Assembly: GCA_943787445.1 (NCBI GenBank)
Contig: CALSML010000020.1
Coordinates: 62,001-126,000, forward strand
Length of the DNA: 64,000 bases
Direction: 5' to 3'
DNA from: an uncultured Alphaproteobacteria bacterium
Lineage (GTDB): Bacteria > Pseudomonadota > Alphaproteobacteria > UBA6615
The notes beneath the pieces are model-generated. The model saw only the letters and a list, made by a program, of their open reading frames with translations, was not told the origin of the DNA and did no database searches. The first letter of the stretch is position 1; each line of letters starts with the position of its first letter. The translations under genes and the position numbers were made by a program. Below are positions 35,112 through 47,199 of the stretch, piece after piece.

Positions 35112-35666
35112 ATGTCCCTGTTCTGGCTTGACCACGTCAACATCCGCACCGCCAATCTCGATGCCATGTCGGCATTCTATGAAGATGTTCTGGGCCTCAA
35201 GCGTGGCAAGCGGCCGAGTTTCGAATTCGGCGGTGCCTGGCATTATTGCGGCAAGCAGGCCGTGGTTCATCTCGTCGAAGCAGCGAAGAAGTTCAAAACC
35301 GACGAAGCGCAGGTTGAGCACTTCGCCTTTCGTTCGAATGGCACGGTGAAGGCATTCCAGAAAAAAATGCGCGACACGGACACCCCCTACAACGTTGTCC
35401 CCCTGACCGAGATCAACATGATCCAGGTCAACGTCTTCGACCCGGATGGCAACAAGATCGAAATCCAGTTCGCCGCCAGCGAAGCCGATATGGAGCCCTT
35501 CAACGGGTCCCCGGCCGCGCGCCGACGGGTACGCAAGGGCGCCGCGCTCAATGTCGTCGGCCCCATGCCTCTCAAGAAGTCCAAGGCGAAGACATCCCGG
35601 ACCAACAAGCGTCTGGGTGTGCCAAAGCCGATCAAGGCGCCGACGAAACGCAACCCGCCTTATTAA
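35112..35666 (+). CDS. VOC-family protein with basic C-terminal tail
   Basis: A 184-residue protein. The first 130 residues form a vicinal-oxygen-chelate domain (LDHVNIRTANLDAMSAFYED, a second His in VEHFAFRSN, and FDPDGNKIEIQF). The last 50 are unusual: rich in Lys, Arg and Pro (KKSKAKTSRTNKRLG), with no predicted fold, perhaps binding nucleic acid or acidic partners. The ATG at 35112 follows GGAGGAAA. No operon partner is close. Confidence 0.8.
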   Translation: MSLFWLDHVNIRTANLDAMSAFYEDVLGLKRGKRPSFEFGGAWHYCGKQAVVHLVEAAKKFKTDEAQVEHFAFRSNGTVKAFQKKMRDTDTPYNVVPLTEINMIQVNVFDPDGNKIEIQFAASEADMEPFNGSPAARRRVRKGAALNVVGPMPLKKSKAKTSRTNKRLGVPKPIKAPTKRNPPY

Positions 35667-35788: not shown

Positions 35789-36398
35789 ATGCGCCGTACG
35801 TCAATTTCCAGAACCCTTGCCCGCAAAGCCGGTGCACTTGGCTGTCGCCGGAGCGCTCATATCCGCTGCGGCATGGGGAACCACCGGCGCATATGCGCAG
35901 GATGGCTATGGCGCCAAAGTTGGCGAAGTTATCCCGCATCAGCTTGAGGTTCCCGATCAGACCAATCAGGTACAGAGCTTTGTGACCCTGAAAAAGAACA
36001 AGGGTCTGATCATGCTCTTCTCCCGCTCTCTGGCGAGATAACCCACCTGCATTAGCCAAGCGATTGCTTGGAACGATAAAGTGGATTACGTGCACGAGAA
36101 CGGCTTTGAAGTCGTCTCCGTAACGGCCGATGACGTCGAAACGCTGAAACGTTTCTCGGCACGCCGGAAGGTCAAGTTTCCTCTTCTCTCCGATGAAAAG
36201 AAGGAATCCATTGCCGCCTTCAACCTGTTCAACGACCGGTTCCCCGAAGGCAGCCGCTACTAAGGCACCGCTGTGCCGCAGGTGGTCGTTGTCGACGCCA
36301 ATGGCGTTGTGACCCGCACCTTCTCAGGTCACGGATAAACCTCGGATGACGAGATCGAGGGTATCGTGGACCGCGCCGTGGCCGGGCCCGCAAGCTAG
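35789..36398 (+). pseudogene. Exported peroxiredoxin-like protein (copy 1), three in-frame TAA codons
   Basis: The likely start is the ATG at 35789, with GAGG upstream, giving a basic n-region (RRTSISRTLARK); a one-base shift near 35820 leads into the hydrophobic part of the signal (HLAVAGALISAAAWG) and the mature AhpC/TSA-like protein. The mature frame then stays open in register to 36398 except for TAA at 36039, 36261 and 36336. The first TAA lies in RSLAR-stop-PTC, at the position of the catalytic Cys (or Sec in copy 2). The other two lie where Tyr or His is expected (SRY-stop-GTAVPQVVVVDANG and GHG-stop-TSDDEIEG). The clean frame with three stops suggests decay of a once functional copy. 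It is 6 bases upstream of its tandem homologue. Confidence 0.7.
36056..36071 (+). other. SECIS-like hairpin relic in peroxiredoxin copy 1
   Basis: A perfect 6-bp stem (36056-36061 with 36066-36071) closes on a GATT loop. The loop starts 20 bases after the TAA at 36039-36041, the same relative place as the candidate SECIS of copy 2, and has G as its first loop base. It suggests that copy 1 once had a selenocysteine codon, later changed from TGA to TAA. Inference only. Confidence 0.35.
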
Positions 36399-36404
36399 GT
36401 GTCC

Positions 36405-36975
36405 ATGCCGGCTCTCCGCACCCTGGCAGGCGTAGCATTCCTTTTTGGAATGCTTGCCTCACACCCTGCGCAGGCACAGGACGCGATTTCGCAGGGTGTG
36501 AAAGTTGGCGCCGTCATCCCGCATATGCTTGAGGTGCCGGACCAGGCCAATCAGGTCCAGAGCTTCGCGACCCTGAAAAAGAACCGGGGGCTGATCCTGA
36601 TATTTTCCCGTTCTCTGTTCTGGTGACCCTATTGCGATGATCAGGCGGTCGTCTGGAATGACACGATCGAAGACTTCAGATCACTCGGATACGAGGTTGC
36701 AACGGGCACCTATGACCCGGTGTCCAAGCTGCAACGCCTTTCGCGGGGCGCCAAAATCAAATACCCGCTGCTCTCGGATGAAAACTCGGACATCATCCGC
36801 GCCTTCGGGCTGCTGGCCACGAACTATGCGCATCGATCACGGCATCCCGCACCCTACGATTGTCGTGATCGATGCGGATGGCGTGGTCAGCCATCGTTTC
36901 TCCGAACAGCGCTATACAGACCGCCCCGAAGTGGATGACGTGCTGGCGGCACTCAAACGCGACGCCGGGAGCTAG
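36405..36975 (+). CDS. Candidate selenoprotein: exported peroxiredoxin-like protein (copy 2) with in-frame TGA and one frameshift
   Basis: The ATG at 36405 follows AGGTG and opens a signal peptide ending near HPAQAQD. The mature protein has the AhpC/TSA-like start (VGAVIPHMLEVPDQANQVQS), then RSLFW-TGA-PYCDDQA at 36624-36626. Related Cys proteins read W-C-P-Y-C there, so the TGA replaces the peroxidatic Cys and would give a U-P-Y-C site if read as selenocysteine. The frame continues unshifted on the far side (YEVATGTYDPVSKLQRLSRG, KYPLLSDENSDIIRAFGLL). Near 36830 a one-base shift separates this from the conserved C-terminal PTIVVIDADGVVSHRFS. A SECIS-like hairpin follows the TGA. Expected role: periplasmic thiol- or seleno-peroxidase or disulfide reductase. 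The selenocysteine machinery is not in the window, so function is unproven. Confidence 0.6.
36624..36660 (+). promoter_or_regulatory. Candidate bacterial SECIS element
   Basis: After the TGA at 36624-36626, 36636-36642 pairs with 36647-36653 (7 bp, two G-U pairs) around an AGGC loop. The loop starts 16 bases after the TGA and has G within its first two bases, which meets the published rule of thumb for bacterial SECIS (loop 16-37 bases downstream, early G). A lower 3-4 bp helix (36630-36633 with 36657-36660) can extend it across an internal loop. Seen by eye; energies were not computed. Confidence 0.45.
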
Positions 36976-37006
36976 ACGCGAAAAGCGGACGAAAGCTTCA
37001 ACGAAA

Positions 37007-37030
37007 AAGGCCGCCCGGAGGCGGCCTTTT
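37007..37030. terminator. Bidirectional terminator between peroxiredoxin copy 2 and rpsD
   Basis: A perfect 9-bp stem (37007-37015 with 37020-37028) with a CGGA loop, flanked by A residues on the left and T residues on the right. It can end transcripts from both convergent genes. Confidence 0.9.
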
Positions 37031-37055
37031 GTAATTTGTCGGTCGAAGTGACCTC

Positions 37056-40039: not shown

Positions 40040-41274
40040 CTATTGTGGTCGGGTCAGAAACACAGCGGATATGGCGGCCCCGGCAAACGCCAGCCCCAAT
40101 GCGATCTGCGCAAGTCCGGTCAGGGCAAACGCGCCGGTCAGGTCAATCCGGTCTGCCAGGGGCTGGCTATAGAGCGGGGAGGCAAAGATACCGAGAAACT
40201 GGAAGAACGTCAGGCCGCCCACAAATCTTCCCCGCATGTCGAGCGGTGCGATCGAGAGCAACCACGCATAAAAGGTTGGCATCAACGGGCCAAACCCGAT
40301 TCCCGCAAAGACCATGCCCAGCATTGCCTGCTCCACACTGTCTGCCGTGCCGGCCAGCAGCAAGCCTGTCCCGAGAAAGAGATAGGTCCCTACGAGGATC
40401 GCGTTGTTGTCAAAGCGTTCACGCAAACGACGAAACGCCATCGCGGTGAGAGCACCAATGGCGTTGAACACGGCGATGGCAATGCCCGCCACCGCCGCTG
40501 CCGGAATTCCGATTTCGGGCAGGAGAAACGGTACCTGCGACGGGATCATGAATGTGGAAAGCATGCTCACGCAGATCAGGACATAGATCAGAACAGCCCG
40601 GAGCACCGGAAACCGGTTGCCCGGTGCGAACAATCTCCACGGCGGGGCGCTGCGGATTTCATGCGAACCGGCTCACGCACGCAGAAAACCACTAACGGCA
40701 GGACGATCAGCCCCGCAAGATAGAGATAGAACGGCAGGCGCCAGTCGGTGTCGGCGAGAAAGCCGGCAACTGTGGTTCCGGTTGCCACGGCAAAAATCAT
40801 CACGGAGATCTGTGCACCCGCCATCCGATTGCGGGCCGCACCACGATAATAGTCTCCGATCAACGTGGTCGCCGCGGTCAGGATCATGCCCGAAGCAATC
40901 CCCAGCACCGCCCGACTGACCAGCAATTCCGTCAGACCTTCCAGCCATATGCCCGCAGTCCCGCTCACCAGATAGAGGATCAGAGCAGAGAGCAGGACGG
41001 GTTTGCGCCCGATCCTGTCGACCAGAAGTCCCGCCAGTGGTGCCGAAAACGCCATGAAGAGCGCTGTGATTGTCAGGACCAGGCGTGTCAGCAACGCCGC
41101 ATCGGGCCAGTCGGCATAGGCAAGTTCGATCGCGGGCAGCGACGGTGCCACCGCTCCCAATGCCAGCAGAGTCAGACTGCTAGCTGACAGGATCGCCAAA
41201 GTACGCAGCGGCGCGCGCGCAGTAACCGCGTCCGGATCGGAGTCAGAGGAATTCAAAACAGGTCCACCCTTCAC
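40040..41274 (-). pseudogene. MFS transporter, one frameshift
   Basis: Two reading frames make one 12-helix major-facilitator protein. The first (from 41274) holds the N-terminal six helices with the MFS loop motif LAGLLVDRIGRKPVLLSAL and RAVLGIASGMILTAATTLIGD. The second (to 40040) holds the last six with AVFNAIGALTAMAFRRLRERF and VFAGIGFGPLMPTFYAWLLS. They join after VREPVRMKSAAP by a one-base change in the G/C run near 40645. The composition suggests a drug-efflux-type transporter. It may be a real frameshift or a base-calling error. Confidence 0.75.
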
Positions 41275-45533: not shown

Positions 45534-47199
45534 TTAGGCCTTGCCCCGAAATGCATTGGTGATCGGATAGCGGCGATCACGGCCAAATGAGCGGCTGGTC
45601 AGTTTGACCCCTGGCGGGGCCTGACGGCGCTTGTATTCGGACAACTCCAGCAGGCGCCAGATGCGTTGCACCGTTGCGGCATCGAAGCCCTTGGCTTCCA
45701 GCTCTGCACCCCCCAGATCCTCCTCGATCAGTCCGTGCAGAATGGTATCCAGTGTCTCATAGGGCGGCAGGGAGTCTTCATCCTTCTGGTCCGGACGCAA
45801 GCTCGGCAGAAGGTGGTTTGGAAATCATCCGTTCCGGGATCACGGCTCCCGCCGGACCCATCACATCATCGGGGGTATGTTCATTGCGCCAGTGGCAGAG
45901 CGCGAAAACATCAGTCTTGTAGACATCCTTGATCACCGAATAACCGCCATTCATGTCGCCATAGATCGTCGCATAACCGACGGACATTTCCGACTTGTTG
46001 CCCGTCGTCACCAGCATCGCACCGGTGGCATTGGAAATTGCCATGAGAAGCGTTCCGCGCGCACGACTTTGAATATTCTCGGCCGTCACGCCCGATGCCG
46101 GTTCGTTGAAGACCTCGGTCAGCATCTCGTCGAACGCACCCATGGCTGGCGCGATATTGGCGCTGTCGTACCGCACCTTCAGCCGCTCGGCGAGTTCCAA
46201 TGCGTCTTCAAGGCTGTCCTGGCTGGTATAGGGGGACGGCATCATCACGCAATGCACCCGTTCCGCGCCCAGCGCATCGACTGCAACGACAGCCGTGATC
46301 CCGGAATCGATACCGCCTGACAGGCCGATCACCACACCCGGGAAGCCGTTCTTGTTCACGTAGTCCCGCAGACCGAGGACCATGGCCTGATAGATGCGCT
46401 CCTTGCCTTCGATCCAGTCATGGACGTCTCCGCTGACACAGGACCAGCCATCTGCGCCGCGCGCCCATTCGGTCGCGGTGAGATCTTCGGTGAACTGCCG
46501 GGACGCTGCAGCCATCCGGCGATCGGCGTTCAACACAAACGAACCGCCATCAAAGACCAGTTCGTCCTGCCCCCCGACCTGGTTCACATAGATCAGTGGC
46601 AATTCGGTTTCGGTCACCCGCGCAACCGCGTGGTTCATGCGCACATCAACCTTGTCCCGCTCATAGGGACTGCCATTGATGATAACCAGAATTTCAGCCC
46701 CGGATTCCATGAGCGTTTCGGCAACATCGGGGGTCCACATATCCTCACAGACCGCCAGACCCAGACGCACACCGCGATAATTCACCGGACCGGGCAGTTC
46801 GCCAGCCGCAAAGACACGTTTTTCATCAAACACGCCATAATTGGGCAGATCCCATTTGAAACGCAGGGTCTGAACATTGCCATCGTCGAGCACGGCAGCG
46901 GCATTGAAACGTCGGCCGGCTTCATCCAGCCAGGGCGTGCCGATGATCAGCCCGGGACCCCCATCCGCAGTTTCAGTCGCAAGCGCCTCGACTGCCGCCA
47001 TTGCCGCACGAACAAACGCGTTCTTCAGGATCAGGTCTTCGGGCGGGTAGCCGGTGATACACAATTCGGTGCCCACCACCAGATCGGCCCCCTGCGCGGC
47101 GGCCGCATGACGGGCCGCACGGATTTTCGCGACATTGCCATCGATATCCCCGACAACGGGGTTCAACTGCGCGAGCGTGATCTTCAGGGAGTCAGTCAT
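45534..47199 (-). CDS. nadE: Glutamine-dependent NAD synthetase, one frameshift
   Basis: The start is the ATG ending at 47199 (MTDSLKITLAQLNPVVGD). The N-terminal nitrilase-like glutaminase shows VVGTELCITGYPPEDL (Glu), FKWDLPNYGVF (Lys) and GLAVCEDMWTPD (Cys). The synthetase part has VIGLSGGIDSGITAVVAVDA, the P-loop-like SGGxDS motif. The last 90 residues (LRPDQKDEDSLPPYE onwards, with LTSRSFGRDRRYPITN) are shifted by one base near 45800; deleting one T restores a standard 554-residue protein. It makes NAD from deamido-NAD. As the gene is normally essential, the shift is more likely a sequence error than a null allele. Confidence 0.85.

Follow-up and report, generated by a model that had tools for sequence, protein, structure and literature searches.

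The locus at positions 36405–36975 of the window (the whole 64,000-nucleotide stretch of DNA that was analysed) raises two questions: whether an in-frame TGA at a redox position is a codon for selenocysteine (Sec, U), and whether the gene that carries it can still give a complete protein. The answer that we consider probable is a tandem pair of exported, peroxiredoxin-like (Prx-like) UxxC selenoprotein genes, both copies of which are inactivated here, in a lineage that is most likely losing the pair. The gene at 36405–36975, called copy B below, is a frame-shifted remnant identified by its Pfam AhpC-TSA domain and by comparison with relatives. Immediately upstream, at 35789–36398, alignment with relatives revealed a broken paralogue, copy A, that the first-pass annotation had overlooked. 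Both copies, with all features described for them, lie on the forward strand.

The selenocysteine codon and its conservation

In the frame starting at 36405, the TGA at 36624–36626 is found in the context RSLFW-TGA-PYC, and thus takes the first Cys position of a W-x-P-Y-C motif (WUPYC), exactly as the first-pass annotation had read it. The N-terminus of copy B had been called a signal peptide, and by eye it does read as one, of the AQA-Q type (36405–36479, MPALRTLAGVAFLFGMLASHPAQAQ); the N-termini of the relatives are also hydrophobic. The sel genes, on whose presence the proposal of a selenoprotein had been made to depend, were all detected in the genome: selA (C17:168055, 578 bits), selB (C17:169434, 461 bits), selD (C17:193527, 295 bits) and the tRNA-Sec gene selC (C17:192164, 71.2 bits), for which ARAGORN gave the anticodon TCA.

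A search at the level of the order covered 24 genomes, all of one family, and the protein was present in 14 of them. Every homologue found within the genus has TGA at the Sec codon, and each family copy that spans the codon contains one TGA, except copy A of the window and the Cys homologue of genome G009. The alignment that had been suggested for deciding between Cys and Sec therefore shows a Sec codon in nearly all close homologues. The Cys homologue of G009 is the only one in the same family, and no match to selA was detected in that genome; selA also gave no match in G019, a genome that is 87% complete and has a TGA copy. In wider samples of 385 genomes of the class and 398 of the phylum, f92 and f104 were two more families with TGA homologues, and homologues with Cys, in motifs such as WCPYC and WCPFC, came from elsewhere.

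A tree of 39 proteins groups the Sec rows together, with 2 changes compared to a mean of 9.7 after shuffling. In this tree, where the long outgroup branches are placed with uncertainty, A and B fall on two branches of their own that predate the genus. The tandem arrangement of A and B is kept in G001, G002, G005 and G020–G023. Searching plasmids returned just two weak matches, and a scan of genome contigs gave five loci, three of them informative, with L034 being the G002 locus; two archaeal matches span 19 residues only. Judged from these comparisons, the TGA at 36624–36626 is a true selenocysteine codon site of a predicted exported protein with a peroxiredoxin fold.

The same genome carries two further intact Prx-like genes, L031 (G000:C18:77356) and L033 (G000:C17:175816), with TGA in the motifs FRGHWUPYC and FYRGHWUPYC, respectively, and no obvious signal peptide; both are likely additional selenoproteins. 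In G006 and G007 the redox motif is reordered at three loci (L053, L063 and L064), which read WUTPC and WUAPC instead of WUPxC, and G007 holds a third copy that is internally deleted, with the motif absent.

The SECIS hairpin

Conserved pairing, together with the loop and spacing rules for bacterial SECIS elements (bSECIS), points to a candidate apical hairpin of copy B at 36641–36656. Its 6-bp stem pairs 36641–36646 with 36651–36656 and closes a GGUC loop (36647–36650) 20 nt past the TGA, and the hairpin, CCAGGC[GGUC]GCCUGG, is conserved 3' of the TGA in nearly all homologues of the family. In 13 sequences of the pair, 100% of the cells in alignment columns 27–32 versus 37–42 (36641–36656 of the window) were paired, with a compensatory change from G-C to A-U in 3 of the 13, while slid controls, in which the partners were moved by 1–3 columns, reached at most 51%. 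The GGUC loop is present in every one of these sequences but copy A of the window, whose hairpin (36056–36071) keeps the stem and has a loop changed to GAUU.

The first-pass annotation had placed the SECIS in a different register, a 7-bp hairpin with an AGGC loop. This hairpin can form here (−7.8 kcal/mol) and is a more stable local fold of the window sequence than the conserved GGUC hairpin, but across relatives only 69% of its cells are paired, compared to 100% for the GGUC register, and we rejected it as the SECIS. A bSECIS model with rules for loop, stem and spacing and an energy rule of −7.5 has been described (PMC13188914). The GGUC hairpin, with its 6 bp and 20 nt, agrees with the loop, stem and spacing rules of that model (PMC13188914); in isolation, the window's hairpin reaches −5.4 kcal/mol and so misses the energy rule. 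The whole stretch of 47 nt from the TGA reaches −9.9 kcal/mol, in a different fold. As single-strand folding found these 47 nt no more stable than their shuffles (z 0.54), folding energy alone gives the SECIS no support; its conservation does.

Covariation in the stem is modest because the relatives share much of the stretch by descent, and it is weak in a wider alignment (A3), where the stem is the same in most rows and so can hardly covary. The proteins of copies A and B are only about 42% identical, and the constancy of stem and loop between the two copies is a stronger argument for a SECIS than covariation. At the corresponding position of L069, a distant homologue with TGA, there is also a hairpin, of 7 bp and with a different sequence.

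Fold, family and proposed function

The pair in an intact relative matches Pfam AhpC-TSA with 68–76 bits. An AlphaFold model of a relative's copy B (pLDDT 77, pTM 0.74) places U-x-x-C at the beginning of the first long helix, and all 50 of the 50 PDB fold matches listed were peroxiredoxins, Bcp/PrxQ types included; among sequence matches to solved structures, Bcp/PrxQ proteins were best and ResA was weaker. No NCBIfam model reached its cut-off. The motif PxxxTxxC/U of classical peroxiredoxins was sought in the pair and found to be absent. We therefore rejected a classical peroxiredoxin; the protein is likelier to be a thiol:disulfide oxidoreductase with UxxC or else a non-standard peroxidase. 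The exported, peroxiredoxin-like selenoenzyme of the first-pass annotation thus keeps its Sec site, its fold and its signal peptide, but it is a Prx-like UxxC oxidoreductase instead of a peroxiredoxin in the strict sense, and its gene is frame-shifted.

The combination of an AhpC-TSA domain (PF00578) with a UxxC motif, both found in the pair, is that of Prx-like thiol:disulfide oxidoreductase selenoproteins (UxxC or UxxU), in which Sec likewise stands first in UxxC. These are listed among the prokaryotic selenoprotein families as a high-confidence prediction (PMC13188914), and the gene belongs to this known family. Such PF00578 selenoproteins are common in the sea and have many Cys homologues (PMC13188914; PMC2398784), and with 225 sequences 'Prx-like 1' (PF00578, UxxC) belonged to the more frequent families of the Global Ocean Sampling data (PMC2398784). 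The pair differs from 'Prx-like 1', whose published representatives we compared by description, in its predicted export, in its motif FSRSL(A/S)WUP(T/Y)C and in being kept as two adjacent genes.

Three other groups come close. Sec-containing classical peroxiredoxins (PxxxTxxU) share the fold and the Pfam family, but the pair has Phe for the Pro and Leu for the Thr, and its Sec lies in UxxC instead. To the profile of SelL-related redox proteins (NF040769) the match is weak, with 31 bits for the relative's copy B and 20 for copy A, far under the cut-off of 120 bits that marks membership. The motif of SelL is UxxU, whereas it is UxxC here. PrxQ/Bcp thiol peroxidases rank near the top of the solved structures matched, by sequence as well as by fold; the pair, in contrast, has a signal peptide and UxxC, and with 50–56 of 140 bits it stays under the curated thiol peroxidase cut-off.

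In relatives with working copies, the GGUC-loop hairpin just 3' of the UGA would recruit SelB with Sec-tRNA-Sec, and Sec would be inserted as the first residue of U-x-x-C, where the first long helix of the thioredoxin fold begins. Once exported, the protein would alternate between a selenol/thiol state and a selenenylsulfide formed by Sec and the nearby Cys, a cycle that may reduce periplasmic disulfides or peroxides. Of this scheme, the genes of the Sec machinery, the conservation of TGA and hairpin, the modelled fold and, by eye, the signal peptide were observed; Sec insertion, export and substrate are inferred.

Apparent inactivation of the pair: loss or assembly error

In relatives copy B is intact, with 192–205 aa. 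Alignment to the closest relative, the G002 locus L034, which is about 86% identical in DNA and has the same gene order, revealed an 8-bp deletion in copy B after about 36829 (junction 36829–36830), so that the frame does shift, contrary to what had been claimed. Similarity to homologues ends at about residue 142 of the frame from 36405 and resumes in an ORF at 36637–36975; the gene end previously set at 36975 is the stop of that other frame, and the frame from 36405 runs into a second TGA at 36936. The deletion drops from the copy B frame the last strands and helix as well as the invariant P153 of the alignment, probably the cis-Pro of the fold. Copy B is therefore not open from start to stop apart from its TGA, and as assembled it could not give a full enzyme even with Sec inserted.

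Copy A is damaged at more places. It has a 1-bp frameshift in the signal peptide, at about 35836, and a TAA (36039–36041) at the Sec codon position, where relatives have TGA; the Trp codon preceding the Sec site is changed as well. Two more in-frame TAA codons, at 36261–36263 and 36336–36338, stand where relatives have Tyr codons, and because of the TAA codons and the frameshift copy A, too, has no open frame from start to stop. As read, both copies thus appear inactivated: copy A is without Sec codon, SECIS loop and frame, and copy B without its C-terminal part. Downstream of copy B, between it and the convergent rpsD, a GC-rich hairpin at 37004–37031 is flanked by runs of A and T and probably acts as a two-way terminator.

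Either these lesions are real, or errors of the assembly have put the frameshifts and the deletion, perhaps also the TAA codons, into a pair that is intact and functional in the living organism, an explanation that we regard as the less likely one. Other frame lesions lie nearby: compared to a sister genome, the NAD synthase gene (45537–47199, reverse strand), the only copy in the genome, is put out of frame by 1 bp close to its 3' end, probably through an assembly error, and an MFS transporter gene (about 40043–41274, reverse strand) is frame-shifted near 40620 relative to G002, both within about 10 kb of the pair. The NAD synthase case implies that assembly errors may explain some of the lesions and that single-base indels of the window need care. 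Outside the lesions, dN/dS is low in both copies (0.056 for copy A and 0.073 for copy B, with 0.015–0.05 for neighbouring genes), which means that the inactivation is very recent or partly an artefact, and neither L031 nor L033, the two further Prx-like genes with a Sec codon in this genome, is broken. Against wholesale error, copy A combines several separate disabling changes with an altered SECIS loop, the 8-bp deletion of copy B is not a homopolymer error, and no such density of lesions was seen in the roughly 20 other genes, which are intact over the 30 kb compared with G002.

The sister genome G003 also argues against it. G003 has selA, and there the flanks of the locus, a glyoxalase-like gene and rpsD, are kept, but at L084 the start of copy A is joined to the end of copy B by a deletion of roughly 970 bp, with further damage to the frame. 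This remnant shows directly that the pair can be dispensed with in the genus, and since a sister species truly lost it by deletion, real loss is the likeliest reading for the present genome. We favour real loss over assembly error, even if single lesions may still be errors.

That both copies are broken in this genome would also suit an ordinary pseudogene, in which the TGA is a nonsense mutation of a Cys codon and selenocysteine plays no part. We consider this very improbable, as many species have TGA at the position, in more than 20 distinct homologues whose frame is otherwise open and is followed at the TGA by a conserved hairpin, and as the genome encodes the full Sec machinery. Equally improbable, and rejected, is a decoding of the TAA codons of copy A by recoding or reassignment so that this copy is still made: the three in-frame TAA among 13 nonsynonymous codon differences are a mild excess over random change (P about 0.015), few other changes are harmful and the hairpin stem is retained, but TAA terminates neighbouring genes such as the glyoxalase-like gene ending at 35666, the TCA anticodon of tRNA-Sec is not expected to read UAA, and copy A is, besides, frame-shifted and altered in its SECIS loop.

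With real loss as the favoured reading, the genomes of this one genus may represent successive stages, an interpretation towards which we lean slightly: the pair is intact in G001, G002 and G005, freshly broken here and collapsed by deletion in G003, with Sec machinery and other selenoproteins retained. What is new is the exported tandem pair, together with stages of its loss that can be seen; a literature search on exported Prx-like selenoproteins, of limited coverage and hence weak as evidence, found no paper containing all its terms. Zhang et al. (2006) relied on the presence or absence of selenoproteins to infer their loss in sister genomes, and the cases that they found were confined to Clostridia, Deltaproteobacteria and Actinobacteria (PMC1794560). 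Unlike in such inference, the remnants of a loss may themselves be visible at the locus described here.

The locus also calls for caution, as a TGA at a redox Cys position was rightly called Sec and its gene nevertheless appears dead. For the family, Prx-like selenoproteins gain an exported, tandem branch with a clear GGUC-loop SECIS. If the stages are true, they would show in action the loss of selenoproteins by inactivation, and not by replacement of Sec with Cys.
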